Part shown: positions 140 through 15,362 of the stretch, piece after piece | Position numbering within the stretch: position 1 is the first letter of the stretch | Layout: every line of letters begins with the position of its first letter | Origin: Pirellulimonas nuda | GTDB taxonomy: Bacteria; Planctomycetota; Planctomycetia; Pirellulales; Lacipirellulaceae | Length of the DNA: 64,000 nucleotides | Reading direction: 5' to 3' | Assembly (NCBI RefSeq): GCF_007750855.1 | Contig: NZ_CP036291.1 | Location: 5,554,905-5,618,904, forward strand | Notes under the pieces: model-generated | Told to the model about the DNA's origin: nothing | Seen by the model: the letters and a program-made list of their open reading frames with translations, nothing else | The model's database searches: none | Program-made: the position numbers and the translations under genes

Positions 140-580
140 CTACGCGTCGCTGGCCGACGCGAACACCTCGTCACACACGCCTTCGAGGGCGCTCGCCAGC
201 TCGTTCATCTCGTCCTCCCGGTCAGGCGAGGTCAGCTCGTCGAGCCACCCCTCCTCGCAGGTGAAGACCAGCACCACTGCGGCCTCCCGGTCGGGAACGT
301 CGTTCGGGTAGACGCCGCGCCCCACCTGAACAAGGGCCTCCCACCGGGCCTCCTCCACGACCGTGCGGAGCTTCTCGTCGCGGTCCTCGGCCGGGTCCTC
401 GCAGTAGAGGTAGACGAGCTTCTCCTCCAGGTGGGCCCCCACGAACCACGAGCGCTTGGAGCCCATCCGGAAGAAAACCCCCGCGAGAACCGCCGCGACG
501 ACGTTGAGGATGGTTACCGGCGGCTTGTTCCGTTCCTCTTCCAAGCGGGCGAGGCGACGGTCTTTTTGTTGTTGGATCAC
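140..580 (-). CDS. Hypothetical protein of the integrated element
   Basis: 146-residue protein I do not recognise. A basic, Gln/Arg-rich start (MIQQQKDRRLARLEEERNK) is followed by a short hydrophobic stretch near residues 22-37, which could be one weak membrane segment or a buried helix. The rest is strongly acidic (many Asp/Glu), typical of small phage or plasmid accessory proteins. It lies 165 bp downstream of the DNA polymerase gene on the same strand, so it may be the next gene of that transcript. Function unknown; that it is coding rests on length, codon-position GC and same-strand context. Confidence 0.55.
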   Translation of the reverse strand: MIQQQKDRRLARLEEERNKPPVTILNVVAAVLAGVFFRMGSKRSWFVGAHLEEKLVYLYCEDPAEDRDEKLRTVVEEARWEALVQVGRGVYPNDVPDREAAVVLVFTCEEGWLDELTSPDREDEMNELASALEGVCDEVFASASDA

Positions 581-745: not shown

Positions 746-2995
746 TTACGCGGCCTCCTCTGTGGGCGGACTCCAGGCCACACGGCGTCCCTGGGCGTCC
801 AGGATCGGCTTGGCCTCCTTGTGCCAGCACGTCGAGACCGCGGACTCCACGCCGATGCGAACCCCGGGCACAACCTCTGACATCGCGTCGATCATCTGCG
901 TGCGGACGATCGCCTCGTGCCACGCGAGGTTGGAGTCTTCGGGGACTTCGACGATGATCTCGTCGTGGATGAAGTTCGCGATCCGGTACCCCGCCCGCCA
1001 CAGCCGCCACAGGGCCTGCTTGGCCCCGTCGGCGGCGAGGCCTTGGAAGATCGTGTTGTGGCGTGCCGTGAAGTTCGAATTCGCACGCAGGCGACCGGTG
1101 AGGGTGAAAACACCCAAGCGGTCGAACGCGTGCATGACGGCCTTCTGGAGCTGGGGAGAGGGGCGACGCAGCCGCACGTCCTGGTGAAACTTGGCGGGGA
1201 GGTGGTCGATCCCAGACTGCAGTCGCGACCAGAGGTAGTCGCACGCCTGCTCCGAGTAGGGTTCTCCGTTTCCCTTTGCCGGCTCGGGTACCTTGATCGC
1301 CTTGAGCAGCATGCGAGACACCGTAGGCTCGGGGCGGTAGGGGTCCGAGCCGTCGATCGGCCTCCGCGGCTGCCGCCCCAGAGCCTCGTTGTAAGCCCCC
1401 CAGCTAAGCCCCAGCTTCTCGGCCATACACCGGATGGCGTGGTCCTCACGCGCAAGGAACGTTTTCATCTCCGGGAACTGCTCAAACCAATCCTCCCGCA
1501 TCGCGTCCGCTTCCTCCTCGGTGAGCGACGCTCCGAACGAAGCAGCGGCGTAGCCCCGCAGCCCACGGGCGCCCATGCCGCCCGGGACGCCGAAGTTGAT
1601 CGCTTTGGCCTTACCCCGCTCCTCCCCGGAGACCTGTTCTGCAGGCTTGCCGTAGAATGTCGCAGCCATCGTGCGGTGCAAATCGACCCCCGCGTTGATC
1701 AGCCGCTTCATCTCGGACGTCTCACCAAACTGGGCCTCGACAGCGAGGGCAAGCGTCCCCAATTCGATCGTCGAGTAGTCCGCGTCGATGAACACGTTTC
1801 CGGGGTGCGGCGTGAAGCAGGAACGCACACGGGGGTCGCGGGGCAGGTTCTGCGCGTTGAGCTCGCCGAAGGAGCTGGTGCGCCCTGTGGTGAGCAGCGG
1901 CTGGAAGCTGGGGTGGACGTCCTCGCGGAAGAGCTTGTCTACAAACGATCCCAGCAGCTTTTCGCACTGCTTGAACCCCAGCAGGTCGTCCACAAAGGGC
2001 TCGATGCCACGGAGCTGCTCCAACGCGTCCTTCGACGCGCGAAACTCCTGCTTCTTCTCGGTCCTCTCCAGCGACAGCTCTGGGTGGCGACGCTGGATGT
2101 CACGGAGGATGCCCTGGAGCGCCTTGTTGCACTTGGGCTCGCCCGCGAGGTAACCCTGCTTCCGTAGCCTCTCCCGCAGCTCTGCCTGGCGGGACCCGAG
2201 GGCGTCCTTCAGGTTGCGGCGCCCCACCGCGTCGATGTGCAGCCCATTGGCCGTGATCTCACGCAGCACGATCGACGCCTTGAGCTGGAGGTGGTGCGTC
2301 AGCGGGCCGTAACGCTGCTGAGCGTCCGCGAGCCACTGCGCATCGACGTAGCCCCATTGGTCCGCGGCGCTGTTGAGCAAGGTGTCGGTGCGGCGGCGAA
2401 GCTCCTGATGGACGGCAAGCGTGGCGAGCGTGTCGCGGGCCAAGTACTCCAGGTACTGGCGGGGGATCTCGCCGGCGGGGCGGTGGAGGTACTGGCCGAA
2501 GTTCAGCCGCACCGCGTCGCCCGACGCGTCTGCGGCGTCTTTGTCGAGCGTGAGTCCGAGGTACTCCTGGCAGCACGTCGCGAGCGTTGATAGCCCCTTG
2601 CCGTTGGCGGCGTGCCCCTCCCTGCCCAGCTTCAGCAGCTTGTGCTGGAGCATGGTGTCCCAGACCTGCCCACGTTCGACCAAGCGGTAGATGTCGAGCT
2701 GGGGGGCAACCTTGTGGATCACCGCCAAGTCGAACGCGGCGTTGTGCATCACGAACTGGCAGCCGCGGTGGTCCCGCAGGAAAGAGCCAAGCGTCTTAGG
2801 GGTGAGGAAGTACCCCCGCTGCCCGTCCGTGGCGGCGGCCAGCACCAGCTCGGGCGCCTCCCAGTGCCGCACGTCGTCGATGAGCGTTGTTTCGGTGTCG
2901 AGGGCGATTACATCGCCGAGCGCCTTGCCCAGAGAGGGCTTCCACGGCGAGAAGGAAACTGGGTCGTGCTGGGGGGATAGGCTGACTTCAAGCAT
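746..2995 (-). CDS. Family A DNA polymerase with 3'-5' exonuclease domain
   Basis: 749-residue DNA polymerase of the Pol I superfamily in the phage/plasmid layout: a 3'-5' exonuclease domain then the polymerase domain, with no 5'-3' exonuclease domain. Exo motif I is ALDTET (Asp33, Glu35), Exo II is HNAAFD near residue 84, and Exo III is the YLARD segment near 185. Polymerase motif A is DADYSTIEL near 401, motif B is RGKAKAINFG near 460, and motif C is HDE near 677, so all catalytic positions are present. Proofreading synthesis of element DNA is the likely role. Cellular PolA is longer (about 900 residues or more), so this looks like an element-encoded replicase rather than the housekeeping enzyme. 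Its start follows directly on the repeat-rich tract at 2996-3311. Confidence 0.93.
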   Translation of the reverse strand: MLEVSLSPQHDPVSFSPWKPSLGKALGDVIALDTETTLIDDVRHWEAPELVLAAATDGQRGYFLTPKTLGSFLRDHRGCQFVMHNAAFDLAVIHKVAPQLDIYRLVERGQVWDTMLQHKLLKLGREGHAANGKGLSTLATCCQEYLGLTLDKDAADASGDAVRLNFGQYLHRPAGEIPRQYLEYLARDTLATLAVHQELRRRTDTLLNSAADQWGYVDAQWLADAQQRYGPLTHHLQLKASIVLREITANGLHIDAVGRRNLKDALGSRQAELRERLRKQGYLAGEPKCNKALQGILRDIQRRHPELSLERTEKKQEFRASKDALEQLRGIEPFVDDLLGFKQCEKLLGSFVDKLFREDVHPSFQPLLTTGRTSSFGELNAQNLPRDPRVRSCFTPHPGNVFIDADYSTIELGTLALAVEAQFGETSEMKRLINAGVDLHRTMAATFYGKPAEQVSGEERGKAKAINFGVPGGMGARGLRGYAAASFGASLTEEEADAMREDWFEQFPEMKTFLAREDHAIRCMAEKLGLSWGAYNEALGRQPRRPIDGSDPYRPEPTVSRMLLKAIKVPEPAKGNGEPYSEQACDYLWSRLQSGIDHLPAKFHQDVRLRRPSPQLQKAVMHAFDRLGVFTLTGRLRANSNFTARHNTIFQGLAADGAKQALWRLWRAGYRIANFIHDEIIVEVPEDSNLAWHEAIVRTQMIDAMSEVVPGVRIGVESAVSTCWHKEAKPILDAQGRRVAWSPPTEEAA

Positions 2996-3311
2996 CTCTT
3001 AGTGTCCTTCTGGCGTTAACCTGTTAACCCCTGTTCACGTAGATACGCACAGGGTTAACAGGGGTTAAGTTGTGCGCTATCAATGACTTACGTCCCGATA
3101 ATTAACCTATTAACCTGTTTGACCCTCCCCGGCCTATATGTATGCGAAGCGTACACGCGTGATGTAAACACACACTTACACGCGGGGGAGGTAGAAAAAG
3201 GTTAATAGGTTAATTCCTTCGTTCTAAACCACTCTCTCATAAAGGCTTGCGGCGATTAACCTGCCTCCGGGGGAGGTTAATCGAGGTTAACGGGTTAACA
3301 AACAATCCGCT
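2996..3311. repeat. Iteron-like tract of TTAACC/GGTTAA repeats; candidate origin or operator array
   Basis: A 316-bp gap between the helicase-like and polymerase genes, clearly more AT-rich than its surroundings. I count twelve copies of the hexamer TTAACC or its complement GGTTAA, near 3016, 3024, 3053, 3063, 3102, 3110, 3200, 3208, 3257, 3275, 3285 and 3293. A perfect 12-bp inverted repeat, TTAACCCCTGTT at 3024-3035 and AACAGGGGTTAA at 3057-3068, sits just upstream of the polymerase start. Direct and inverted short repeats beside replication genes are typical of iteron origins. Equally, they could be the binding array of an element repressor controlling the polymerase promoter. Repeats are seen; function is inferred. 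Confidence 0.65.
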
Positions 3312-4814
3312 TCATTCGTCGTCTTCACCCCAGCTGAGCCCGTTCCCACTGCCTGTGGCGGCCGAAGGCGCCTCCGTCCCTGCAGGGTTGGGGCTGGGAG
3401 CGGCAGCGTCGTCGGTCTCCGGCGCCAACAAGGTCACGTCTTGCGCGGTTGCCCGCGCCTCGCGCGGCGTACCAGCCTGGGGGCCGGCGGCCTCTGCGGC
3501 GGGGAGTGCTATCTCGAACAGATAGAGCTTCGAGTTCGAAGGCCCCTGGACCCGCCGGAGCGTCGCCTGGAAAGGCCCTTCGGCGCCCTGGCAAGGGATG
3601 GGCCGCTCGACAAACTCGCTGAAGAACTGCCCGATGCGGGTGCTCTTGGCCTTGAGGTTGGCCTTCTGGCTGAGGTCTCTCTCCAGGACACCCGCCTGCG
3701 CGAACACGGTCACCCAGTCGCTTGGTCGCTGGCCGCACGGGCCCCCGTCCCCGGCGCCCCGGTAGAAGCCGGCCCTCTGCTGGGACACGACCCATTCCGC
3801 GAGGCCAGCAATCTCTTGCATCGCTGCGTCGACCGCGGTGATGGCTTCCCCTTGATTCGACAAGAAGCCCTCCAGGCCGCAGGCCTGCAGCATCCCGCCA
3901 ACCTGCCTCGACCAGGCGATCATGCGATGGTTTGGGGGCGCTAGCGGGCGGCCCTGCTGCTTCCACCACTCGACCATCCCGTAGAGCTCGGCCAGCAGCT
4001 CGTCTTGGAACTCGATCGCGTACGCGACCGGGCAGTCGTGGCGGAACGAGCGGTCGGTTGTGGCGCCTTCGTGCAGCAGGTTGATGACCACCGCACGCGA
4101 CGCCAGGTCGGCGGTGAGCAGCGCCCCGTTGGCGGTCAGCAGCCACAGGAACGTGTTGGGAGTCTCGAACATCTGGTTGCCCCCCAGCCGGCGGTCACAG
4201 TAGACCGGCGACACCGACTGGGACTCCAGGAACGGGCTCCCCACCTCGCGGCCGCTTGCTTCGCGGCTGTTGTCCAGGATCAAGATCGATGAGCCGCCCT
4301 TGAGCAGGCGGGCGGTGATATGTTTGCGTTGCTCTTCTTCGTCCGGGAGCATCGCGACTAGTTTCGGGTCCTCGCCGTCGCAGATGGCGCCGACCGTGCG
4401 CGCAAGCAGCGTCTTGCCGACCCCTTTCTGGTTGGCGAGGATGGCCGCGATCGGCTTGCCAACTGCGGCGAACAAGTGTCCCAGAAGGGCCGTCAGCAGC
4501 ACTCCAATGAAGTTGACGAGGTCGATCCGGGACGCGAACGGCACGTCCTCCAGCAGGTCCGCGAGCCGCGTCGGGAGCCCCGCGAAGATCGAGCCCGCGG
4601 CGCAGGCGGGCTCAAACAGGGCCGGTGCAATCGGCACGCCGTGGATGAGCGTCTCTTGCTCCGCGTAATAGCCCGGCCCGCGCAGTTCAAAGTCAGGGCC
4701 GTACAGCGGCCTGCGGGCGTACACCTTGATCTTCGGCAGCGCCTCCTGCGTCTGCTCGTCGGCGAACACCAGTCCCACGAGGTCTTTGGTTGGCGCAAAG
4801 GTTGTGTCAGCCAC
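3312..4814 (-). CDS. P-loop ATPase, probable replicative helicase of the element
   Basis: 500-residue protein with a Walker A motif NQKGVGKTLLAR near residues 129-140, a Walker B-like strand SILILDNS near 178 and a sensor-like WLLTANGA near 223. This is the arrangement of AAA+/superfamily-3-like helicases of phages and plasmids, and of the ATPase half of primase-helicase systems. The C-terminal 50 residues are low-complexity (Ala/Pro/Gly) and end in an acidic tail. It is one base from the small gene upstream (4816) and follows the primase, so primase, linker and ATPase look like a split primase-helicase. The exact helicase family is not certain from sequence alone; it could also be a DNA-packaging or loader ATPase, though the context argues for replication. 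Confidence 0.7.
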   Translation of the reverse strand: MADTTFAPTKDLVGLVFADEQTQEALPKIKVYARRPLYGPDFELRGPGYYAEQETLIHGVPIAPALFEPACAAGSIFAGLPTRLADLLEDVPFASRIDLVNFIGVLLTALLGHLFAAVGKPIAAILANQKGVGKTLLARTVGAICDGEDPKLVAMLPDEEEQRKHITARLLKGGSSILILDNSREASGREVGSPFLESQSVSPVYCDRRLGGNQMFETPNTFLWLLTANGALLTADLASRAVVINLLHEGATTDRSFRHDCPVAYAIEFQDELLAELYGMVEWWKQQGRPLAPPNHRMIAWSRQVGGMLQACGLEGFLSNQGEAITAVDAAMQEIAGLAEWVVSQQRAGFYRGAGDGGPCGQRPSDWVTVFAQAGVLERDLSQKANLKAKSTRIGQFFSEFVERPIPCQGAEGPFQATLRRVQGPSNSKLYLFEIALPAAEAAGPQAGTPREARATAQDVTLLAPETDDAAAPSPNPAGTEAPSAATGSGNGLSWGEDDE

Positions 4815-4815
4815 G

Positions 4816-5178
4816 TTACTCCTCCTTTTGGGATTGCTTCATGTAGAACAAATTGCTCAGCGTTGCGGCCGCGTCCTTAGTTGGAGCGCCGTCGGACGTC
4901 AGCGGAATCAGGTCGAGCCGCTCGCCGATCCGCCGCTCGTAGAAGAGCTCGCCGTTCCAGTGAAAGACTTGATGCGAGTCGACCAGGACCTGGCGGATTT
5001 CGCCGAGGACAACCGAATGGTGTTTCAAGAAGACGCCGGTCTTGGTCATCCCTTCGATCTCGGAGACGCTGCGCGCCCCCGGCGCGGGCAGACGGGCGAA
5101 GGCGCTCCGCGCCGCCGCGAAGTTCCGCGCGAACTGAGCGGCGGCACCGTTCCTAGTGGCGGGGCTATTCCGGGGCAT
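4816..5178 (-). CDS. Small protein between primase and helicase
   Basis: 120 residues if translation starts at the ATG at 5178 (MPRNSPATRN), overlapping the end of the primase gene by 14 bases; a longer in-frame reading up to 5262 starts with an implausible Arg-rich stretch. The sequence has an Ala-rich N-terminal half and a more ordered C-terminal half with aromatic residues (VFHWNGELFYERR). No family recognised. Overlap upstream and a one-base gap downstream suggest translational coupling and a role as adaptor or accessory subunit of the primase-helicase pair, which is inference from position only. Confidence 0.6.
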   Translation of the reverse strand: MPRNSPATRNGAAAQFARNFAAARSAFARLPAPGARSVSEIEGMTKTGVFLKHHSVVLGEIRQVLVDSHQVFHWNGELFYERRIGERLDLIPLTSDGAPTKDAAATLSNLFYMKQSQKEE

Positions 5179-5935
5179 CGACGAGCGCCTCCGAAACAAA
5201 CGTCTCGATCGAAACCGTGCCGCACGTCTTGTAGCAGCGGCCGCGGTGATCGAGCACGGCAAGAGACGAGCCCTCCGCCCGGCAGCAGGGGCACGGCTCC
5301 AGGCGGTCCGAGCCGGTCCAGAGCTGGACGAGCGATTTGAACGGCGAGGCGTTCAGCTCGTCGCGAAACGCCTCGATCTCGCCCGCGGTGCACGGCGCGC
5401 CGGGGGCAAGCTGCACAACTCGCGCGCCGTTCTTGCTATTGATCGCGCCCACCGGCCGGGTCATCGCCGTGATCCCCGGCGCCCGCGGGTCCGACGGCAG
5501 GGCATACTGAACGATCTGGGTCGTGATCGCCCAGCGGTCCCGCTCGTCGTCGGAGAAGAACTCGATCGGCTCGTCGAGCCACAGCAGCGCATGGAGTCCG
5601 CCGCCCGACATGCGGACCTCGGCCTTTTTGAGGAGGCTGTGCCGGGCAAGCAATGGTTTAAAGACCTGCGCGTAGAACGCGAACGGGTCGTCGCCCACCG
5701 TCTCAAAGAGCCCGCCGGACTTGATCAGCTTGAGATCGATGTCGAGCATCAAGCCGCGGCTCGACGTGATCCGCTCGGCGCCGACCGCGATCTCGTGCGC
5801 CGCGCCGATCGCTCCGCCGTTGTAGAGCGCCTCCCGCTGGTCGAACTTGCCGGCGTCGGGGTCGGCTTTCGCTGAGCTCTGCTTGGTGCGGCGGGCGGTT
5901 TTGGGTACAATAGGGGTTGTTGTGGCCTTGGCCAT
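5165..5935 (-). CDS. Archaeo-eukaryotic-type primase (AEP/PrimPol-like) with zinc-binding tail
   Basis: 256-residue protein carrying the marks of the AEP primase superfamily. These are an acidic pair DID (Asp65, Asp67) after a hydrophobic strand, the SGGGLH loop (residues 110-115, His115), and a later RPVGAINSK segment (Arg160, Asn166, Lys168) matching the third conserved motif. A C-terminal CPCC...C...C cluster (Cys215, 217, 218, 234, 238) looks like a zinc-binding module, as often found next to primase cores. It would make RNA or DNA primers for element replication. It is the first of three tightly packed genes ending with the P-loop ATPase. Motifs are seen; superfamily assignment is from pattern, so a profile search should confirm it. 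Confidence 0.75.
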   Translation of the reverse strand: MAKATTTPIVPKTARRTKQSSAKADPDAGKFDQREALYNGGAIGAAHEIAVGAERITSSRGLMLDIDLKLIKSGGLFETVGDDPFAFYAQVFKPLLARHSLLKKAEVRMSGGGLHALLWLDEPIEFFSDDERDRWAITTQIVQYALPSDPRAPGITAMTRPVGAINSKNGARVVQLAPGAPCTAGEIEAFRDELNASPFKSLVQLWTGSDRLEPCPCCRAEGSSLAVLDHRGRCYKTCGTVSIETFVSEALVDAPE

Positions 5936-5979
5936 GATGATCTGTCCTGTTTGTTGGTGATGCTTCGAACTGGACTCTC

Positions 5980-6012
5980 GACGCCGTCCCGGCCTTGCGG
6001 CCGGGCGGCGTC
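5980..6012. other. GC-rich hairpin upstream of the primase gene
   Basis: GACGCCGTCCCGGCC and GGCCGGGCGGCGTC form a stem with a TTGC loop and one bulge, 45-77 bases upstream of the primase start. There is no U-run after it on either strand, so it is more likely an attenuator, mRNA-stabilising or processing hairpin than a simple terminator. Confidence 0.45.
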
Positions 6013-6109
6013 ACTGTCACACACTCTCTCTTCCTCCGGGTTGCTTGGGGGCGAGGGTCCTTCTTGATGAATCACGCGTCGCGGCGCCTGGGCGCCTCAA
6101 CTTTGCGGG

Positions 6110-6574
6110 CTACGCCTGACGCTTACGTTCAAGCAGCCCTGGCTCCGGCGTGTTCCAAAAGGCGTGAGAGAACGCCAACGCAATGGTTGGGTCTGCGCGG
6201 CCCTGAAACACGGCTTGGACCCTGCGCGCCAGAAGAACGAACGTCTGCGCGTCCGGCGTCTGCCGGTAGAGGACAGCGAGCTCCGCGACGAAGTCACGAT
6301 CGGCGGGCCCGGGCTCAGTGTCTTCCTGACGGACCTCGCGATCGTCAGCGCCTGCCCCCTCGCGCTCCAGTGCCAACACCACGTCACGGACGGCGGCCGT
6401 GTACTCGGCGCAATGCCTATCGTCGTCCCACTCGGGCATCACTGCCGGATGCAGCATCGCTTTGAGGAACACATTGAAATCTCGCTGCGACAACCCGTGC
6501 CTCTTGTCGGGACGCTTGAGTTCCGCCTCGCTCTTGCTCTCTTCCGGGGGCTGGACTTCGTTGACTTTGGACAT
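6110..6574 (-). CDS. Hypothetical acidic protein of the element
   Basis: 154 residues from the ATG at 6574 (MSKVNEVQPP), which has GGAG eight bases upstream; an in-frame ATG at 6586 lacks such a site. The N-terminus is charged and likely disordered, followed by a probably helical body (FNVFLKAMLHPAVMPEWDDD... and AELAVLYRQTPDAQTFVLLA). No known family. It lies between another hypothetical gene and the primase gene, so it is probably part of the early/replication transcript of the element. Confidence 0.6.
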   Translation of the reverse strand: MSKVNEVQPPEESKSEAELKRPDKRHGLSQRDFNVFLKAMLHPAVMPEWDDDRHCAEYTAAVRDVVLALEREGAGADDREVRQEDTEPGPADRDFVAELAVLYRQTPDAQTFVLLARRVQAVFQGRADPTIALAFSHAFWNTPEPGLLERKRQA

Positions 6575-6608
6575 GATCGACTCCATAGGGTTGAGTGGTG
6601 GAAAAGGA

Positions 6609-6636
6609 GGGCCGCCGGATCAAACGCCGGCGGCCC
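6609..6636 (-). terminator. Hairpin terminator between two element genes
   Basis: A perfect 10-bp stem, GGGCCGCCGG (6609-6618) with CCGGCGGCCC (6627-6636) and an 8-base loop, lies just after the stop of the 6642-7076 gene. On the minus strand it is followed by TCCTTTTCC, a short pyrimidine-rich run consistent with factor-independent termination or attenuation before the next gene. Confidence 0.6.
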
Positions 6637-6641
6637 TGTCG

Positions 6642-7076
6642 CTAATTGGCGTAGGGGCCGTCTTCGCTGAGGGTCGCCGCGGCCCACATCGCCGAGCGCA
6701 GGAAGTGCCGGAGGAGCTTGAGCTGGGCCTCGGGGCCCGCCGCGTTCTGTACGATCTCGATAAGCAGATGGCGCGGGTTGCGCTCGGGCGGCACGGAGAC
6801 CCCATCTTGCGCAGAGCCCTCTTCCGCGAGGGGCTCGGTCGGGTCGCCCAACTCTGCGTCGACGACATCCTTGGCGGCCGCCGTTGCGATCGCCAGCAAG
6901 AGCGCATCATTCTTCGCAGAGACGCCACACGCGTTGAGAAGGCCGGTCACAAAGTCACGAACCTCCTGCCCGACCAACATCGCCTTGAACCAGGGCTCTT
7001 TGGTTGTTACTAGCGTCTCGGCGCGCGCTTCCGGCGACGGGTCTGCATTCGGATAGCGGCAAGAGCTTACGATCAT
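6642..7076 (-). CDS. Hypothetical protein of the element
   Basis: 144 residues from the ATG at 7076 (MIVSSCRYPN), chosen because AGGAGAAG lies just upstream; the frame stays open to 7250 but that extension has no ribosome site and odd composition. The protein appears all-helical, with a hydrophobic C-terminal segment (LKLLRHFLRSAMWAAATL). Its layout, an N-terminal helix bundle, acidic middle and a helical region ending in Leu/Arg pairs, is loosely like the next gene at 6110-6574, but I cannot align them convincingly. Function unknown. Confidence 0.6.
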   Translation of the reverse strand: MIVSSCRYPNADPSPEARAETLVTTKEPWFKAMLVGQEVRDFVTGLLNACGVSAKNDALLLAIATAAAKDVVDAELGDPTEPLAEEGSAQDGVSVPPERNPRHLLIEIVQNAAGPEAQLKLLRHFLRSAMWAAATLSEDGPYAN

Positions 7077-7249
7077 CTTCTTCTCCTGTGAGTAGTGGGT
7101 GGGCGTTAGGAGCCCGAAAGGGTTGCACGGCCCGCGGCGAAGGCCGTTCACGTTCTGGCTAGGCGCATTCGGACAGACCTGCTTCGTCATTTGGCCTAGC
7201 CGGTCAGACGAAGCCGTAACTAAAGGTTCCGGTGGATTGGTGGGCGACA

Positions 7250-7603
7250 CTAAAGCCCCTCTCGATCGAGTTCGCGCTCGGCGGCCTCAACGCGGTGGTT
7301 GTGCTCGGGTTCGCGGTCGCACCCAGTGATGGGCGATGGGGCCTTGTCCGCGGAAGGAATAGCCGAACCAAGGCCGACCGTGATCGCCTCCCCCATCGCC
7401 GCGTTCGTGGCATATAGCCAGCGCAGTACGGCGTCTCGAGAACACACTCGCCGTCCCGCAAATTTAAGCGTGGGCAAGGGAATTCCAGCGATCCCGCGGA
7501 GGCGCCACCTGTGGCAACTAGCGCTGGAAGGTCGGCGGCCAGTGGCCTGCTCGACCGCTTCAGGGACGGGGAGCAGAGGCTCCCCGGGGGCTACGTGCAA
7601 CAT
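7250..7603 (-). CDS. DUF1580 family protein, excisionase-like DNA-binding protein
   Basis: 117 residues. The N-terminal part (VPEAVEQATGRRPSSASCHR, then WRLRGIAGIPLPTLKFAGR, then a RDAVLRWL segment) matches DUF1580, a small family best known from planctomycete genomes. Its logic is that of MerR/excisionase-type helix-turn-helix proteins: a helix choosing the site, a wing with a conserved Gly-Arg, then a final helix. In an integrase-bearing element this suggests a Xis-like or copy-control regulator. It is the most upstream gene of the leftward replication transcript; two perfect inverted repeats lie 79-135 bases upstream of its start and are likely operators. Family call from memory of the pattern; role inferred. 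Confidence 0.65.
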   Translation of the reverse strand: MLHVAPGEPLLPVPEAVEQATGRRPSSASCHRWRLRGIAGIPLPTLKFAGRRVCSRDAVLRWLYATNAAMGEAITVGLGSAIPSADKAPSPITGCDREPEHNHRVEAAERELDREGL

Positions 7604-7856: not shown

Positions 7857-9009
7857 TACGCTTTCTATTTTGAAGTAGCGCGATCGAGGTAGGGAGCTGC
7901 GCAGACCGAACGGACGAGGTCCTGGTCGAGGACGGCGACGCGCCATGCGGCCATGGCGGCCGCTTCGAGGGCGTCGTAGTCGGCGTAGGCGCGGTTGCTC
8001 CAGAAGTGGCTCTTGAGGTAGTGCCAGAGGTTCTCGATCGGGTTGAGCTCGGGGCTGTAGGGGGGCAGCTTCACCAGCGTCACGTTCTCCGGCACACGCA
8101 GCGCGCTGCTGGTGTGGAAGCCTGCGCCGTCCCAGATCATCACGGCGTGCTCTCCCTCGGGGATGGTCTTGGCGAACAGCTCCAAGAATGAGTTGACGAT
8201 CTGCGTGTTCAACTGCGGGCTGAGGAGCCCCTCGGCGTTCCCAGTCTCGGGGCACACGGCGCCGATGACCCACAGGTACTCGTACTCGGTCTGACGCACC
8301 GCCGTTGGCCGTGAGCCCTTCTCGGCCCAGACGTTGGTGTTGGTCCCCTGCTGGCCGAACCGCGACTCGTCCTGGAAGTAGACCCGCAGCCGCTTGCCCG
8401 GGTGCTCCGCGGCGATCTTGTCGAGGCGCTCAGGCCACGCTTGCTTGAACGCTTCGACCTGCGCCGGATCTGCCTTGCGATGCCGCGGCCGAGGACGCAG
8501 GCAGCTGTACCCCAAGCGGTGCAGCAGCCCATAGACCGACGGCAGCGACCGGAGCAGGTTGAACTCTGCCGCCAAGATCCGCTGAAAGTCCTTGCCGCGC
8601 AGCGTGCAGACCTCGTCCCCTTCGACCGGCCCGGCTTCAATCCGCTGGCGGAACGCGGCCTCTTGCTCGGCGTCGATCGGCAGCCGCGGCTCGCGCCCCC
8701 GCCGATCGTCGAGGCCCGCCAGGCCCTCGGCGTTGTAGCGGGCGGCCCACCGCTGGCAGATGCGACGCGACAGCCCCACCGCCGTGGCGATCGCCGGGGC
8801 GGTCCAGCCCTCCAAACCAAGCAGCACGATCCGCAGCCGCTGGAACCGGCCGATGTCCTTCTCTGCCCGCGCTAGGCGCCGCAGCTCCTCAATCGGGAGA
8901 TGGTCCTTGATCCGCATCGCGACCTCCATGCTAAAGGGGATCGCCGCAGTATGATGGGTAAAATGGGAGGGCGCAATAGAAGGCGCGCTAGTTCAGATTA
9001 GAAAGCGTA
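7857..9009. mobile_element. IS630-family insertion sequence, complete
   Basis: Terminal inverted repeats of 26 bp with three mismatches: 7857-7882 (starts TACGCTTTCTATTTTGAAG) and the complement of 8984-9009 (starts TACGCTTTCTAATCTGAAC). Both ends carry TA, the usual target and duplication of IS630/Tc1 elements. The transposase stop codon lies inside the left repeat. The copy looks intact, so insertion into the larger element is probably recent. It does not break a gene that I can recognise. Confidence 0.9.
7865..8917 (-). CDS. IS630-family transposase
   Basis: 350 residues from the ATG at 8917, which has GGAGG six bases upstream; a second ATG at 8929 is possible. N-terminal helix-turn-helix domains (residues about 15-75, with GLSRRICQRWAARYN) precede a DDE catalytic core: FQDESRFG near 180, IWDGAGFH near 258 and PELNPIENLW near 290, giving the Asp, Asp and Glu that bind metal. 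Cut-and-paste transposition at TA sites is expected. The reading frame is complete and bounded by matching terminal repeats, so the enzyme may still be active. Confidence 0.95.
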   Translation of the reverse strand: MRIKDHLPIEELRRLARAEKDIGRFQRLRIVLLGLEGWTAPAIATAVGLSRRICQRWAARYNAEGLAGLDDRRGREPRLPIDAEQEAAFRQRIEAGPVEGDEVCTLRGKDFQRILAAEFNLLRSLPSVYGLLHRLGYSCLRPRPRHRKADPAQVEAFKQAWPERLDKIAAEHPGKRLRVYFQDESRFGQQGTNTNVWAEKGSRPTAVRQTEYEYLWVIGAVCPETGNAEGLLSPQLNTQIVNSFLELFAKTIPEGEHAVMIWDGAGFHTSSALRVPENVTLVKLPPYSPELNPIENLWHYLKSHFWSNRAYADYDALEAAAMAAWRVAVLDQDLVRSVCAAPYLDRATSK

Positions 9010-9488: not shown

Positions 9489-11261
9489 CTACTCGGTAGA
9501 GATCGCAGGCTGCTCTGTCTCAAGTAGGATCATTTGACGGGGGCCGCCGCGCTCGCCCGGCGCGACCTTCAACGGGACTTTATGTTTACGGAAGTACTCA
9601 TTGAGAAGGTTTCCTTGTTTGTAAATAGTCCCGTCCTCCACATTCTCGTTATGGCCCCAACACGCTTTTGCCAGGTCAGCGTAGTCCACTGGTTTGCCAT
9701 CCGCAGCGAATAGCAGGCGGGCGACCTTCGCTTGCATCGGTTGCATTGTCACTTCAACGATTTTGCCATTCCAAACCCACTGATTCAAACCCAGCGGCCC
9801 CTCCGGATATCGGCGGGCCGTGGCGGCGGCCTGGTCCGAGCTTGCCTGAAGGCTGTCCAGGGCGGTCGTCGTCATCTTTTCGATTGCGACCGGCAGGGCC
9901 TCTTCGATGATCGACGCTACTCGCGGATCGACGCGCACGCAGACCGTGACCTCGACAGAATCGTCCAGCCAGATTCTCACCCGTTGGGGGATCTCCTGCA
10001 AGTATCCATCGACTTCTTCTTGGGCCGCGATGAGGTCGTCGCAGAAGCAGTCCAGCTCTTTACGAAGTTCCTCAACGCGCTGCGCCACCAGGGCGGCCGC
10101 AAAATACCCCCTCCAGTTCACGGCGAACCCCGGCTGCGGTAGAGCGTCGGTCGAGGGTCCCTTCAGGCACTGCGGGGCTCGGCGCGCCACAGAGTCCCAT
10201 GTGCCAAAGCGGCACTCGCACTCCATCTGACTAACCACACGCACCAGGTTGCTCAAGCCCCCAGGGTTGCTCTTCTTGGAGTACTGGGGTGTGCCGCACC
10301 CCGCCGCGTCACCCCCGACGTAGCGGCGGTCGAATGCCAGCAGGTAGTCGATGTCGCTGCGATCAAACTCCTCGCCGAGCCGGCTCAAGCAGCCCCCGAG
10401 CAGATCCGCTCCCCTTCCAGGCGTGCTTAATGCTTTTGCCAAGTCGGCAAGCACTTGCAGGCGTACTTTGAAGAACTGGGGCCTAAATTGCTCGATGCCC
10501 ACTACATCGGCCATACACAGAAAACGGTGCGGGTCGGCGTCTTCCATATGGCACTGCGCCAGTACCTTTTGGCCTGCAGGCCAATCTGGGCCCTCTGCCG
10601 ACTCGCCCGCGGCGTTCTCTCGAGCCTGGCCGTGAAAGAGCCCGCTCCCGATCGGAAGCGTCTGGTTGACGATGACCCAACGGTACCACTTGTAGGGGCT
10701 GGGACCCAACGGATACCCCACGCCTGGACCCAGGCGTGGGGGGTAAAGCGGAGACGAGACGCGGGCGTCATAGAGTCGACCCAGCTCCTCGTGGAGGAGG
10801 CAAAGCCCGGGGAACATCTCGGGCGGCAGACCGGTGCCCAGGAGTGCTTCTTCATGCAAGACCTGGAAGTCGTGAAAGTCTTGGATCTGTTTGGCAAGCT
10901 CGTCGATCTGTAACACGGGCAATCGCCCATCAACGAGCTGATCGATGATCCCAACCCGCCGGTACATCTGATCCAAGTCCGACGCGGCGAACTCCTCGAG
11001 CAACTGCTCGGCGCGGGTCCCTAGCTCGGATTGGTGGGCGTCGCCGTCGTGGCTGAAGGCTGCTCGCAAGGCGTCCTCGAGCAAATCTTGGTAGCGCTGC
11101 TTGGCTTCTTCGCTGGCGTGGATTCGCGCGCAGTGCCCGATGATTTTGTCTAAGCAGCGGCCGACGAGATCGGCATCGACCCCCCACCAGGCGGCGACCG
11201 ATTCGGCCGTTGCCGAGCCTGCATTGAGGGGCGAGCTGTTCTCGGGGCTGGGGCCGCTCAT
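9489..11261 (-). CDS. Large unknown element protein with winged-helix-like C-terminus
   Basis: 590 residues, no family recognised over most of its length. The N-terminal third is helical and acidic (residues about 20-150). The middle contains WPAGQKVLAQCHMEDADPH, CRFGTWDSVARR and scattered Cys/His without a clear zinc finger. The last 90 residues (from about 495: VWNGKIVEVTMQPMQAKVAR, LLFAADGKPVDYADLAKACW) resemble the winged helix-turn-helix of OmpR/PhoB-type effectors, in which a short sheet precedes a core whose position helix is followed by AxxxWG. So it may bind DNA. It sits 93 bp downstream of the integrase gene on the same strand, where integrated elements often carry cargo or regulators. 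Coding is well supported by length; function is open. Confidence 0.65.
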   Translation of the reverse strand: MSGPSPENSSPLNAGSATAESVAAWWGVDADLVGRCLDKIIGHCARIHASEEAKQRYQDLLEDALRAAFSHDGDAHQSELGTRAEQLLEEFAASDLDQMYRRVGIIDQLVDGRLPVLQIDELAKQIQDFHDFQVLHEEALLGTGLPPEMFPGLCLLHEELGRLYDARVSSPLYPPRLGPGVGYPLGPSPYKWYRWVIVNQTLPIGSGLFHGQARENAAGESAEGPDWPAGQKVLAQCHMEDADPHRFLCMADVVGIEQFRPQFFKVRLQVLADLAKALSTPGRGADLLGGCLSRLGEEFDRSDIDYLLAFDRRYVGGDAAGCGTPQYSKKSNPGGLSNLVRVVSQMECECRFGTWDSVARRAPQCLKGPSTDALPQPGFAVNWRGYFAAALVAQRVEELRKELDCFCDDLIAAQEEVDGYLQEIPQRVRIWLDDSVEVTVCVRVDPRVASIIEEALPVAIEKMTTTALDSLQASSDQAAATARRYPEGPLGLNQWVWNGKIVEVTMQPMQAKVARLLFAADGKPVDYADLAKACWGHNENVEDGTIYKQGNLLNEYFRKHKVPLKVAPGERGGPRQMILLETEQPAISTE

Positions 11262-11354: not shown

Positions 11355-12530
11355 CTAGCCGATCTCACGCGCCACCTCGATCGCCCGCCGACGGTCCTTC
11401 TCGGCGTAGAGCTGCGTCGTCCCCACCTGGCTGTGTCCCAGCAGTGTCTTGGCGGCGTCCAGGTCATAGTCCCGGCGCACGCGCGTAGCAACTAAGTGTC
11501 GCAGCTGGTTGGGGCTCCAACGCTCGACGCCCGCCAGCTCCGCTGCACGTGCGATCGCACGCCCGTAGCTTTGCGTCGTGTAGCACGGCTTGGGAGGCCG
11601 CTTGGGCTTGGGGGTGTACTTCGAACCGGCGCGGTTGCCGCAGGAGAGGGGCGTCTTGCGTTCCGCGGCGCGGCGAAGCCGCATCTCGTTGACCGAGGCG
11701 GCGGGCGAGAAGACGTACCCTTCTTCGGCTCCCTCGAGGAAGGGAAGAAGGACCGCCTGGGACTTCGGGCCGAAGTAGAGCGTGCGGTCGCGGTCGTGAT
11801 GGGCGGTCTTGTGATCAACAAGCCTAGCCTCCCAGACCTCGGTCGAACGGTCGATGTCCGTCGTGCGGAGCATGCAGACCTCACCCGGGCGGGCGCCGGT
11901 GAGCATCTGGAGGCGGACCATCGCGGATACCACGCTCGTGAGGTGAGGCAGGGTCTGATCGACTACCGAGGCGTCAGCCGCATGCACCGGCGCGCTCTCG
12001 TGGGCGCCGGAGCGGCCCCTGCGAAGCCCCGGGATCAACGACAGGGTCTGGGGGGTGGCGGGCGGGATGTGCCCCTCCGACGCGGCCCAGCGGAAGAAGC
12101 GGCACAGGCGCTTCATCAACGCGTTGATGTAGGTCCGGGCGAGGCCCTCGGCGATCAGCTTCTCTCGGATCGCCTTGAACTGGGCCGGCCCGAACTCGGC
12201 CGGGCTGGTCCGGCCGTACAATTCGCGGAGCAGCCGCAGCGGCCGCTTCATGTTGGTGAACTCGCCGCGGTTCCCGGCGCCGTAGTACGGCTTGGCGAAC
12301 CGGAGGTAGGCAGCGATCAGCTCGACCATGGTTAGCCGATCCGCCGGGGCGCCGAAGGAGGGAGACCGACCGGCGGCCAGCCACTCGTGGACCACGCGGT
12401 CGTACTCGAGCTTGCTGACCTTCGTGCCGTGCGGCCCGAGGTAATAGTCCTTGCCGGCGAGGGTGACGATGGCCTGACCACTGGCGCGGTGCTTACGGTA
12501 CTTCGGGACGCCAACGCTAAGACGGGGCAT
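11355..12530 (-). CDS. Tyrosine-family site-specific integrase
   Basis: 391-residue tyrosine recombinase. An N-terminal SAM-like DNA-binding domain (about 65-165, with the typical KAIREKLIAEGLARTYIN) precedes the catalytic domain. Catalytic residues visible are Arg in TGARPGEV near 208, the His/Arg pair in NQLRHLVATR near 342, His in LLGHSQVG near 360, and the nucleophilic Tyr in TTQLYAEKD near 373. It integrates and excises the element by strand exchange at short core sites. Its 5' end faces tRNA-Gly 127 bp away, the classic arrangement for integration into a tRNA 3' end. A 24-bp palindrome lies just before its start. Confidence 0.93.
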   Translation of the reverse strand: MPRLSVGVPKYRKHRASGQAIVTLAGKDYYLGPHGTKVSKLEYDRVVHEWLAAGRSPSFGAPADRLTMVELIAAYLRFAKPYYGAGNRGEFTNMKRPLRLLRELYGRTSPAEFGPAQFKAIREKLIAEGLARTYINALMKRLCRFFRWAASEGHIPPATPQTLSLIPGLRRGRSGAHESAPVHAADASVVDQTLPHLTSVVSAMVRLQMLTGARPGEVCMLRTTDIDRSTEVWEARLVDHKTAHHDRDRTLYFGPKSQAVLLPFLEGAEEGYVFSPAASVNEMRLRRAAERKTPLSCGNRAGSKYTPKPKRPPKPCYTTQSYGRAIARAAELAGVERWSPNQLRHLVATRVRRDYDLDAAKTLLGHSQVGTTQLYAEKDRRRAIEVAREIG

Positions 12531-12557
12531 GTGCAGGTCTCCCAGATTACGCAGAGT

Positions 12558-12581
12558 GCAAAACGGTACGTACCGTTTTGC
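12558..12581. promoter_or_regulatory. 24-bp perfect palindrome upstream of integrase
   Basis: Two perfect 12-bp half-sites, GCAAAACGGTAC (12558-12569) and GTACCGTTTTGC (12570-12581), with no spacer, lie 27 bases upstream of the integrase start and 76 bases from the tRNA 3' end. It fits an operator for a dimeric regulator controlling int, or a binding site for integrase or excisionase in the attachment region. Confidence 0.6.
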
Positions 12582-12656
12582 GCCCTCGGGAAACGCCGCA
12601 CTGCCGAGAATTGGCAGGTATCACAAGTGCTTGATTCGGCGGGATTTACGTCAAGA

Positions 12657-12727
12657 GCGGGCGATGGGATTCGAACCCACGACTTCCAGCTTGGGAAGCT
12701 AGCACTCTACCACTGAGTTACGCCCGC
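12657..12727 (-). tRNA. tRNA-Gly (anticodon CCC)
   Basis: 71-nt cloverleaf: 7-bp acceptor stem GCGGGCG/CGCCCGC, D arm ACTC/GAGT, anticodon stem CTAGC/GCTGG around the loop TTCCCAA (anticodon CCC), and a T arm with GTTCGAAT. The 3' CCA is not encoded. The 3' end faces the integrase gene, so the last bases are the likely integration core of the element to the left. Confidence 0.95.
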
Positions 12728-12834
12728 AGCCGCTTCCTGAGGAAGCGTCTTGGTGAAGCGTAGCCTAGCCGGCCGCGCGTTGGCAAGCGCCAATCGCGCG
12801 GCGGCCGGCTCGTTCTGCCACACCGCAACCACCG

Positions 12835-13038
12835 CTACCAAGAGGTGCGTTTGTTGCGGCGTTTGTGGATTCCTCCCATTGGCCCCGCGGTCCGCTTCCT
12901 GCGCCCGTTCGATGGCCGCTTCGAGGCCCGCCCCGGCACGGAACGCTTTGCGCTCCCTACTGGCAGCGATTCTCGCACCGGCGGATCAAGCCTACGGAGC
13001 GCGTCGTCGTCCAACGGCTCCTGACTTTCCAATGGCAT
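12835..13038 (-). CDS. Small basic protein, GIH(K/R)RR...SW tail (paralog A)
   Basis: 67 residues. The start at 13038 is supported by GGGAGA six bases upstream. The N-terminal part is acidic (MPLESQEPLDDDALRRLD); the rest is Arg/Lys-rich and ends GGIHKRRNKRTSW. The same tail, NGIHRRRRRKMSW, ends a second small protein at 13747-13938, so the two are paralogs conserved mainly in their last 13 residues. Being very basic, the tail may bind nucleic acid or membranes. No function is known to me. It lies downstream of the receiver-like gene on the same strand, 70 bp away. Confidence 0.6.
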   Translation of the reverse strand: MPLESQEPLDDDALRRLDPPVRESLPVGSAKRSVPGRASKRPSNGRRKRTAGPMGGIHKRRNKRTSW

Positions 13039-13108
13039 GGTTTTCTCCCTTCGAAGATCTCTACGGTTTCCCCCTCCCCCCGGGCCTTCGATCGCGTGGC
13101 GGGAGCGG

Positions 13109-13624
13109 CTACCACGAAGCGGCGGTTTCGCTGGCGAGACGACCCGCGTCTACGCGAGCGACCTTCCGCACGGCTGCTTTTGCGTCGCGGCAGATTGACG
13201 GCAAATCGCAGCCTTCAACAACACCCGGCAGGCAAGCCCATACGCCCAGGCAACGGGCCCACAACTCGCCTTCCGAATCTCCGTCCGCGACGCACACGGC
13301 CACCAACACTCGGTCGCCATGCAGCGCGCGGATCAACGCCCCGATCGCGTCGCGGTCGACGCCATCGATGCGGCCCTCGACGGGGGGACCCGCCTCGGCG
13401 ACATCGATCAGCGCAAACGCCGCACGCCTCAGTCGCGACTGCCGAACGGCCTCTTCGGCGGATCGGCACGAAACAACCTCCCAGCCGGCCTCGGAAGCCG
13501 ACCGCATCAGGAAGCGCCGCTGACGTTCGCTGCGCGCAACGATCAAGCAGCGCATGGTCGCCGTAGCGATGGCCGCAATAGGCGACGCCCGCGGCTCCGA
13601 CGCCGCGTAAGTTTCTACGGGCAT
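13109..13624 (-). CDS. Response-regulator receiver-like protein, phosphorylation site degenerate
   Basis: 171 residues from the ATG at 13624 (GGAGGG six bases upstream). From residue 24 (MRCLIVARSERQRRFLMRSA) the sequence follows the receiver fold: a first strand, a helix, a second strand VVSCRSAEEAV, and a third strand ALIDVAEAGPP where the phospho-acceptor Asp is expected. The usual acidic pair after strand one is replaced by Ala-Arg, so metal binding and phosphorylation are doubtful; this may be a pseudo-receiver. No output domain follows. It is sandwiched between two paralogous small basic proteins on the same strand. Fold assignment is moderate confidence. Confidence 0.6.
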   Translation of the reverse strand: MPVETYAASEPRASPIAAIATATMRCLIVARSERQRRFLMRSASEAGWEVVSCRSAEEAVRQSRLRRAAFALIDVAEAGPPVEGRIDGVDRDAIGALIRALHGDRVLVAVCVADGDSEGELWARCLGVWACLPGVVEGCDLPSICRDAKAAVRKVARVDAGRLASETAASW

Positions 13625-13746
13625 AGTCGCCCTCCGCTAGGTAAAGTTGCGCCCCGTTTGCTGGGGTCGGACGAGCTGCTTGCGCATGGAGTCATCGGCG
13701 AGCGAGACGCCCGACATGCAGAAAACGCAAGCCACCCGGTCACCGA

Positions 13747-13938
13747 CTACCAAGACATCTTGCGGCGGCGACGACGGTGGATGCCGTTGATCGACTGAGG
13801 CGTCTTTCCACGACGCCGACCCTGCACCGGCCGGTTGTCGGCGGCGTTCGCCCGGTTGCGTGTGCCGTAGTTGAAAGAGGAAGAGTCGTCGCTATCGGCC
13901 GAACCGTTACCGAAACCCTGCCGCTGTTCGCTAGCCAT
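13747..13938 (-). CDS. Small basic protein, GIH(K/R)RR...SW tail (paralog B)
   Basis: 63 residues from the ATG at 13938, chosen because GGAG lies seven bases upstream; the frame is open further to 14010 without a ribosome site. The first half is polar and Ser/Asn/Gly-rich (DSDDSSSFNYGTRNRANAAD); the second half is strongly basic and ends NGIHRRRRRKMSW, matching the tail of the 12835-13038 protein. Probably the first gene of a minus-strand group with the receiver-like protein and paralog A. Function unknown. Confidence 0.6.
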   Translation of the reverse strand: MASEQRQGFGNGSADSDDSSSFNYGTRNRANAADNRPVQGRRRGKTPQSINGIHRRRRRKMSW

Positions 13939-14381
13939 TTTGCGTCTCCATCTGCTTGAGGAACTTGCAGGCCGGCGGGGACTCCCCGGTCCCGTGGTCG
14001 CCGAGCGCATCTACAAACGCCGTTGCCTGCTCCGTGCCTCTGCTTAAGCGAGCGGCGTGCCAGAGCCTTGACTAGCGAAGACAACGGGACGTAACCCATT
14101 GATGGCAAACGTGTTGCGAATCACGGAGGATCAACCATCATCGTCGGCCAGGGCGCTGCGGTTCCCTGATCCGCTGATCTCTCCGCGGCACGCAACGCCG
14201 CAAACCTATACCCAGAAGCAACTTGTGTCATATTTCACAGAAGCAGGGAGAAGCCACCAGAAAGGTGGAGAGGCCCCAGAAAGCCGGGATGGGGCGAGCC
14301 TGGGTCCGTTCTCCCTGTCCGCGGCCGAGAGACCGCAGCACGGGAGGCAGAAGCCTCAATCGAGGGCCGACCGAGCGGGGG
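13939..14381. other. Gene-free stretch with a foldable three-way-junction region
   Basis: No convincing gene in 443 bases. Within it, 14244-14317 can fold into a closed multi-branch structure. A perfect 9-bp stem, CAGGGAGAA (14244-14252) with TTCTCCCTG (14309-14317), encloses the hairpins CCACC-AGAAA-GGTGG (14254-14268) and CCCCA...TGGGG (14274-14294). It could be the 3' end structure of the sigma-54 activator mRNA, a leader of the 13938 gene, or a small RNA on either strand. Confidence 0.4.
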
Positions 14382-15362
14382 CTAGGACTCCGCCGACTCG
14401 TCGGCGCCAAGCTGCTGAATCAGCCGAGTCATCGTGTTGGGGTGCACCCCCAGCAAACGAGCGGCACGCCCCTTGTGCCCCTGCGACGACCGGAGGGCCT
14501 GCCGCACCGCGGCCGCGCGGAGCCTGTCGAGGTTGGTAAAGGGCAGGCTGGGAGCATTTGTGTCGCCGGAGCGTAGGGCCGGCAACGTCGGCTCGCAGTC
14601 CAGCACGTACGCTTGTTCGATCACGTGCGAGAGCTGGCGGATATTGCCCGGCCAGTGGAACTCGCAGAATCCCTGCAACTGCTCGTCGCTCGGTCGCCAC
14701 TGGGCGCGGCTGTAGCGGGCGGCGTACTTGCAGGAAAAGTACTCGACAAACCGCGGGATGTCCTCGACCCTTTGCCGCAACGGCGGCACCCGCAGCTCTA
14801 CCATGTTGAGGCGGTAGTAGAGGTCTTCGCGGAACCGGCCTGCCGCTACCTCTTGCTCCAGGTCGCGGTTGGTCGCGGCGATGATTTGCACATTCACTTG
14901 AATCGGGTGCGAGGCGCCGACGGGGGTCACTTCTCCCTGCTGCAAGACTCGCAGCAGCTTCGGCTGCAGCTCGAGCGGCATCTCCCCGACCTCGTCGAGA
15001 AAGACGATCCCCCCTTCGGCGGCCCGGAAGACGCCCAGGCTCTTGCCGGCGGCGCCGGTAAAGGCGCCCTTCTCGTGGCCAAAGAGTTGGCTCTCAGCGA
15101 GCGTGGGGGTGAGCGCTGCGCAGTTGACCGGCAACAGCGGTCGGTCGCGGCGGGGGCCGATCTGGTGCAGCAGTTTCGCCCACACTTCCTTTCCGGTGCC
15201 GGTTTCGCCGGTCACGAGAACGGGGCACTGCACTTCGGCCGCTTTCTCTGCGTGCCGGGCGATCTGGACGACCTTGGGGTTTTCCCCAAGCACCCAGCTA
15301 TCTGCCGATTCTGGCGAGAGCGCCAGAAGCGTATCGATCGATGGTGAGATAGATATCGACAT
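14382..15362 (-). CDS. Sigma-54-dependent transcriptional activator without sensor domain
   Basis: 326 residues from the ATG at 15362 (MSISISPSID); a further in-frame extension begins only with TTG. The AAA+ domain carries Walker A GETGTGKE near 50, the sigma-54 contact loop GAFTGA near 99, Walker B GGIVFLDEVG near 116, and the AATNRDL and YYRLNMVEL segments with arginine fingers. The C-terminus is a Fis-type helix-turn-helix (GRAARLLGVHPNTMTRLI). The N-terminal regulatory domain is only about 30 residues, so it should be constitutively competent or controlled by a partner. Targets are unknown; it would remodel RpoN-RNA polymerase at -24/-12 promoters. Confidence 0.92.
   Translation of the reverse strand: MSISISPSIDTLLALSPESADSWVLGENPKVVQIARHAEKAAEVQCPVLVTGETGTGKEVWAKLLHQIGPRRDRPLLPVNCAALTPTLAESQLFGHEKGAFTGAAGKSLGVFRAAEGGIVFLDEVGEMPLELQPKLLRVLQQGEVTPVGASHPIQVNVQIIAATNRDLEQEVAAGRFREDLYYRLNMVELRVPPLRQRVEDIPRFVEYFSCKYAARYSRAQWRPSDEQLQGFCEFHWPGNIRQLSHVIEQAYVLDCEPTLPALRSGDTNAPSLPFTNLDRLRAAAVRQALRSSQGHKGRAARLLGVHPNTMTRLIQQLGADESAES

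Follow-up and report, generated by a model that had tools for sequence, protein, structure and literature searches.

A primase-helicase-polymerase block as the likely replication module of a tRNA-anchored integrative element in Pirellulimonas nuda

Why should a planctomycete chromosome hold a set of DNA replication genes not far from a tRNA gene and an integrase, and might these be the means by which an integrated element copies itself? The question is raised by the 64,000-nucleotide stretch of Pirellulimonas nuda DNA considered here, hereafter the window (NZ_CP036291.1, assembly GCF_007750855.1, 5554905-5618904; labelled G000:C1). The minus strand carries there, in order, genes for a DUF1580 protein, two unknowns, a primase-like protein, a small protein and a P-loop ATPase, followed by a repeat tract and then a family A DNA polymerase (PolA). 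Quite likely the block serves as replication module to an integrative element of 124.5 kb anchored at a tRNA gene, i.e., to an integrative replicon. That element, we infer, most likely excises to a circular form, replicates as a plasmid and possesses some route of transfer. A preliminary description of the same DNA had offered 'plasmid or phage' as alternatives, between which the evidence leans toward the plasmid-like.

The element and its ends

The element is what lies between two attachment (att) copies, and only its last 12.7 kb, the right end, is inside the window (Table 1). That is, the 3' half of tRNA-Gly(CCC) found in the window at 12654-12697 is present also as an exact 44-nt copy at 5443065-5443108. 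This is the repeat's single other copy in the genome, with a third copy of its core absent. A tyrosine integrase together with a tRNA 3' half directly repeated at the far end is characteristic of tRNA-targeted integrative elements, and both are present here. Within 194 kb the palindrome core GGTACRTACC occurs twice, once inside each element end, and paired palindromes so positioned are expected for integrase arm sites. Palindromes or repeats placed alike were read by eye in sister elements (TTCCACAGTT in genome G034 and GTACTGGA in genome G089).

The tRNA-Gly gene is occupied by other integrases in several relatives, and tRNA-Gly(CCC) is, as these sequences suggest, an integration hotspot among them. 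Related integrases lie nearby in genomes G162, G178, G114 and G194, some with additional att-like copies.

The module and its candidate origin

The primase-like protein had been described as an archaeo-eukaryotic primase (AEP). It has zero Pfam or PHROG profile matches and no match in PLSDB, IMG/VR or 50,697 phage records, and sequence searches of primase and helicase against PDB, both single and profile, gave no convincing match. Its predicted structure nevertheless is that of the AEP fold. The AlphaFold2 model, built with 13 sequences (predicted local distance difference test, pLDDT, 87.9), is matched best by the PrimPol of cyanophage S-2L (Foldseek E 3.0e-5; VIA Z 11.0, 3.0 A, 136 residues), with further matches to RepB' (Z 8.2), CAPP (Z 8.1) and LigD polymerase domains. 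Motifs I (DxD), II (sxH), III (an acidic residue) and IV (Arg) are present, and D65, D67, H115, D149 and R160 are invariant across 17 primase homologues. These residues follow the order of the S-2L catalytic residues, which are E85, D87, H118, D146 and R157 (PMC8065100), with a D-to-R spacing of 11 in both. By fold and motifs, the protein is a predicted enzyme of the AEP superfamily, consistent with that earlier description, and its C-terminal PCPxC...CYxxC motif suggests a zinc site. A Mesorhizobium locus (L057, 9623-11986) encodes a 788-aa DUF5906/VapE-like protein with the primase motif TRPxGxxNxK, which is, as judged from its sequence, a fused distant relative of this primase.

The P-loop ATPase keeps both Walker A and Walker B, and its profile matches are to PHROG 10537 (E 1.7e-27) and to a phage DNA polymerase/primase family (E 3e-11). 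The structure model (pLDDT 75.5) matches the C-terminal region of NrS-1 (E 2.0e-6), SaPI5 (from among the Staphylococcus aureus pathogenicity islands, SaPIs), African swine fever virus (ASFV) PrimPol and D5, with E ranging from 2e-6 to 1e-4. As VIA Z is approximately 11, with MCM rows close behind and without a clear gap, 'D5/SF3-like' is the safe wording for this helicase; 'D5-like', furthermore, is by predicted structure only, as there was no Pfam D5 or Primase_Cterm match at E 1. The C-terminal H-H-H-beta-beta-beta pattern of the helicase is that of a winged helix, and in many relatives this domain is an open reading frame (ORF) of its own. The 'small overlapping protein' previously counted as a component in its own right is instead the N-terminal domain of the helicase, i.e., approximately 110 residues which form a separate ORF in this element alone and which are fused in homologues.

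The claimed minus-strand order, from DUF1580 to DNA polymerase, is present as judged by gene calls along with PF07618, PF00476 and PF01612 matches. The interval of 2996-7603, said to hold the polymerase, does not do so, with PolA sitting outside of it at 746-2995. An exonuclease domain and motifs A, B and C can be aligned in this polymerase, with the O-helix Tyr replaced (FGxPGGMG), and polymerases of homologous loci are 38-50% identical to it.

Between the helicase and polymerase genes there is indeed an iteron tract, 316 nt in length, which holds 37 repeated 8-mers versus 2.1 +/- 1.9 (maximum 10) in 200 dinucleotide shuffles. Twelve of the 28 copies of GGTTAA in 194 kb fall inside of it, as do all GGTTAA doublets, and its GC is 0.47 versus 0.67 around it. 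The doublets (AGGTTAAT in this element, TGGTGAAC in a relative) include one inverted pair of AGGTTAAY doublets, approximately 74-84 bp apart. Nearly all homologous loci have iterons in this same helicase-polymerase gap, with a usual core of GGTNNAY and, again in nearly all, GC below that of the flanks. The units are GGTGAACC, TGGTGAATG, GGTGGATG, GGTCCACC, GGTTAACC or AGTTGAGGTG, the doublets have a period of 8 or 9, and the inverted pair is in most loci 50-107 bp apart. Iteron sequence, that is, varies between elements while layout is constant. Repeated candidate initiator sites are found in this way beside a putative initiator gene, and the origins of SaPIs and of staphylococcal cassette chromosome mec (SCCmec) likewise are directly downstream of the helicase gene (PMC7581432). 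It is as a layout kept while sequence diverges, at the SaPI/SCCmec origin position, that the tract becomes a candidate replication origin, and this is the strongest new support. A GC-skew peak at 2996-3311 had been proposed as a check, and cumulative GC skew has no turning point there. Correlation of iteron with protein sequence did not single out the winged-helix domain as iteron binder, with r of 0.49 for that domain versus 0.43 for the primase and 0.38 for the helicase core.

The DUF1580 protein may be an excisionase-like DNA-binding protein; it adjoins the module also in loci L034, L041 and L044, and no mention of DUF1580 turned up in the literature search. An integrase does lie near the tRNA gene, as had been described, though not directly next to the block, since an IS630-type transposase gene (7865-8929; recognised by eye) and, beyond it, a gene for a 590-aa protein (9489-11261) intervene before DUF1580. 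At its C terminus the 590-aa protein weakly matches a winged-helix family (Trans_reg_C, E 0.02), and it has no relative among the other module loci.

Table 1. Features of the element's right end, by position in the window
Feature	Position	Strand	Basis or remark
Unknown protein past the polymerase, within the element	140..580	-	
Family A DNA polymerase with 3'-5' exonuclease motifs	746..2995	-	PF00476 E 1.1e-41, PF01612 E 7e-11
Candidate replication origin, AT-rich, AGGTTAAY iterons	2996..3311		Tandem doublets, period 8
D5/SF3-like helicase (predicted), C-terminal H-H-H-beta-beta-beta (winged-helix-like) domain	3312..4814	-	
Helicase N-terminal domain, separate ORF	4816..5178	-	Aligned with N-termini of fused homologues
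AEP-fold primase (predicted), C-terminal PCPxC...CYxxC zinc-type motif	5165..5935	-	
Unknown protein, none in other loci	6110..6586	-	
Unknown protein, none in other loci	6642..7190	-	
DUF1580 protein	7250..7603	-	PF07618 E 2.3e-10
Tyrosine integrase, 391 aa	11355..12530	-	PF00589 E 4.9e-14
Palindrome AAAACGGTACGTACCGTTTT, candidate integrase arm site	12560..12579		Partner ~180 nt inside attL, 5443246
attR, 44-nt exact repeat AGAGCGGGCGATGGGATTCGAACCCACGACTTCCAGCTTGGGAA	12654..12697		attL = C1:5443065-5443108, beyond the window
tRNA-Gly (CCC), integration target	12655..12727	-	ARAGORN

Distribution, cargo and competing readings

A primase homologue is present in 15 of 297 Planctomycetia genomes, with two further contigs supplied by a wider contig search and one relative outside of the class by a phylum-wide profile search (six candidates scored per genome). 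Genes for primase, helicase and PolA (PRIM-HEL-POLA) are collinear and on one strand in all loci with enough contig (17/17). Some genomes possess two module copies (G034 and G089), and there elements have been delimited by att pairs, one of 57.1 kb at tRNA-Val in G034 and one of 76.3 kb at tRNA-Pro in G089. In G034 a second interval, of 12 kb, is found in tandem at tRNA-Val, with its own integrase (L062, 4217-5491) and bounded by a third att copy. For the tRNA-Lys element of G042 a second att copy was not found. The integrase family, being far commoner than the module (219/397), serves also elements which lack the module.

The left flank, i.e., the remaining 112 kb of the P. nuda element, holds defence-like and catabolic cargo, among the matches listed, instead of the tailed-phage structural cassette which had been raised as pointing to an ordinary prophage. 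The former includes a BrxC/D-type ATPase, an Lhr/BrxHI helicase, a dynamin, a kinase, ThiF and JAB, with PADLOC matches of Shango SngB/SngC-type, and among the best 25 of 36 families for the catabolic part are sulfatases, BNR repeats, a sodium symporter, a DHDPS-family enzyme and a GntR regulator. A three-gene operon in the element's left half (C1 5475784-5482346; L008 880-7442), to which the Lhr/BrxHI-type helicase, BrxD-type ATPase and Shango matches are assigned by size and order, is a candidate Shango-like defence system. Cargo is wholly different in the elements of G034 and G089, with that of G089 consisting of metabolic genes. The G034 element (L060-L061) encodes Cas3, Cas5, Csd1, Cas7, Cas4, Cas1 and Cas2, which is a type I-C-like set, and one cargo protein of the G089 element (L066-L069) matches phrog_947 (E 4e-12), a family of phage DNA polymerase processivity factors.

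Might primase, helicase and PolA represent, instead, the early region of a prophage, or of something phage-derived, whose structural genes have been lost or go unrecognised? The nearest PolA matches are indeed phage polymerases (phrog_17, E 2.6e-77; Gordonia phages, 29% identity), and the helicase is 24-29% like phiCbK-like phage proteins. No terminase, portal or capsid, however, is among the Pfam/PHROG families listed for the 124.5-kb element, inter-gene ORFs included and with the best 25 of 36 in its catabolic part, nor among those listed for the 76-kb G089 element, and the primase is without relatives in the viral records named above, all of which makes phage descent very unlikely. Three weak PHROG 'virion structural' labels in the element (1e-8 to 1e-6) may be explained by carbohydrate-binding cargo. 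An integrative conjugative or mobilisable element, with the module serving establishment following conjugation, would account for an integrase at a tRNA, for large size and for mixed cargo, and AEPs are frequent on integrative conjugative plasmids (PMC5862659). The listed cargo Pfam matches, inter-gene ORFs included and to the same depth in the catabolic part, show no relaxase, coupling protein or type IV secretion system (T4SS) ATPase, which renders this explanation improbable, though a weak relaxase may lie below that depth.

Other doubts concern the tract and the element's mobility. Short tandem as well as inverted sites, located between two co-oriented genes, would suit a repressor too, i.e., the tract might act in regulation, as an operator or otherwise, and not be an origin, but this is unlikely given 300 bp of iterons at one place only, that place being the same in nearly all loci, with GC below the flanks, inverted doublets spaced mostly as given above, and SaPI and SCCmec origins at the same position (PMC7581432). 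The island could also be immobile, that is, an ancient integration whose replication genes persist by chance or because they serve repair. An integrase is absent from some loci, and no empty tRNA-Gly site was recovered by flank synteny within the family, where flanking genes are rearranged. Against immobility, which we consider quite improbable, are the exact match of the att copies over 44 nt, ORFs which are intact and keep their active sites, patchy spread, two copies in each of two genomes, and the tandem tRNA-Val occupancy in G034.

Certain observations nonetheless weigh against a self-replicating integrative element. Nine of the 19 loci have an integrase, which in two cases was recognised from its motif alone and belongs to another type, with approximately half of the 19 lacking one in the examined DNA, though several of these are contig ends. 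Iterons are weak in locus L037, and in locus L041 the polymerase gene (12292-14546) is split in two frames with exonuclease motifs lost, that locus probably being a decaying copy and some module copies, by this sequence evidence, probably having decayed. The SCCmec authors expect that a host polymerase finishes replication (PMC7581432), and replication of Thermus ICETh2 is reported to be unaffected by loss of its primase-polymerase (PMC7693054). Locus L041 shares its contig with L052, in Planctomycetales bacterium 10988.

An integrative replicon, the reading preferred here, would begin its cycle with the tyrosine integrase, perhaps aided by DUF1580 as excisionase, recombining attL with attR to yield a circle. 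The helicase would bind the iterons just downstream of its own gene, probably via its C-terminal winged-helix-like domain, and would assemble on the inverted doublets so as to open the DNA between them. On that opened DNA the AEP primase would lay primers, which the element's proofreading family A polymerase would extend. The copied circle might then re-integrate or else reach other cells by helper or uptake, as there are no transfer genes of its own among the listed families.

A broader proposal is more tentative, possible though somewhat short of probable: that these elements form an undescribed, largely planctomycete-restricted superfamily of 57-125 kb integrative replicons, in which a standalone primase of a new AEP family is combined with a D5-like initiator helicase and a proofreading PolA. 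Such replicons would share an origin conserved in layout, with iterons (GGTNNAY) diversifying per element. The result would be many mutually compatible replicons which move defence systems, CRISPR-Cas and catabolic genes without phage or conjugation machinery. A module found in otherwise unrelated planctomycete islands would offer a replication mechanism for large islands in this phylum and explain their copying and spread without virus or conjugative plasmid. Few such elements were found in the literature for the phylum, and none of this kind reported from planctomycetes, in a search covering few subscription journals. Natural initiator/origin pairs which share a layout but differ in their iterons would be useful, in addition, for the study of origin-specificity evolution and for planctomycete shuttle vectors.

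Comparison with known systems

The closest analogue is the SCCmec pattern-2 module, CCPol-MP-Cch2, of which the element is not a member because recombinase type and polymerase type both differ. SCCmec likewise is integrative, its polymerase is of family A and its helicase of D5 type, and iterons near the helicase gene are taken as its origin (PMC7581432). A pairing of AEP with family A polymerase in a planctomycete integrative element had been considered little described. It has more precedent than this implies, since in SCCmec pattern 2 a D5-type helicase accompanies an A-family polymerase (PMC7581432). CCPol, found in Staphylococcus, however lacks exonuclease domains and, together with MP, does its own priming, there being no AEP, and the recombinases are serine recombinases (Ccr) (PMC7581432). 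In the planctomycete element the AEP primase is a protein of its own, PolA bears an exonuclease and the integrase is of the tyrosine type.

SaPIs, which are phage satellites, resemble the element in their D5-like initiator helicase (PriRep1, SaPI5 Rep), which is also a match in fold, and in iterons directly downstream of its gene. SaPIs bring a primase, while a polymerase of their own goes unmentioned in PMC7581432. With cyanophage S-2L, the PrimPol of which is the best structural match of the primase, primase and helicase are fused and there is no other polymerase (PMC8065100). The PrimPol-PV1 families are AEPs on integrated elements, with a motif IV arginine (PMC5862659, in which planctomycetes are unmentioned and PolA occurs once); the planctomycete primase differs in matching no Pfam model, in being standalone and in its C-terminal zinc-type motif.

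Mobile elements with TV-Pol have a family A-related polymerase adjoining a D5-like helicase and an integrase, but TV-Pol is a minimal domain which has been suggested to act as its own primase (PMC2579912), whereas the planctomycete PolA has an exonuclease (PF01612) and the AEP is separate. Pipolins, too, are integrative elements encoding their own DNA polymerase, one which is of family B (PMC7385651), while here the polymerase is of family A, with no DNA_pol_B family among those listed for the element (the best 25 of 36 in the catabolic part). The P. nuda module would add to the self-replicating integrative elements a family A, AEP-primed solution, that is, one standing between SCCmec and pipolins.

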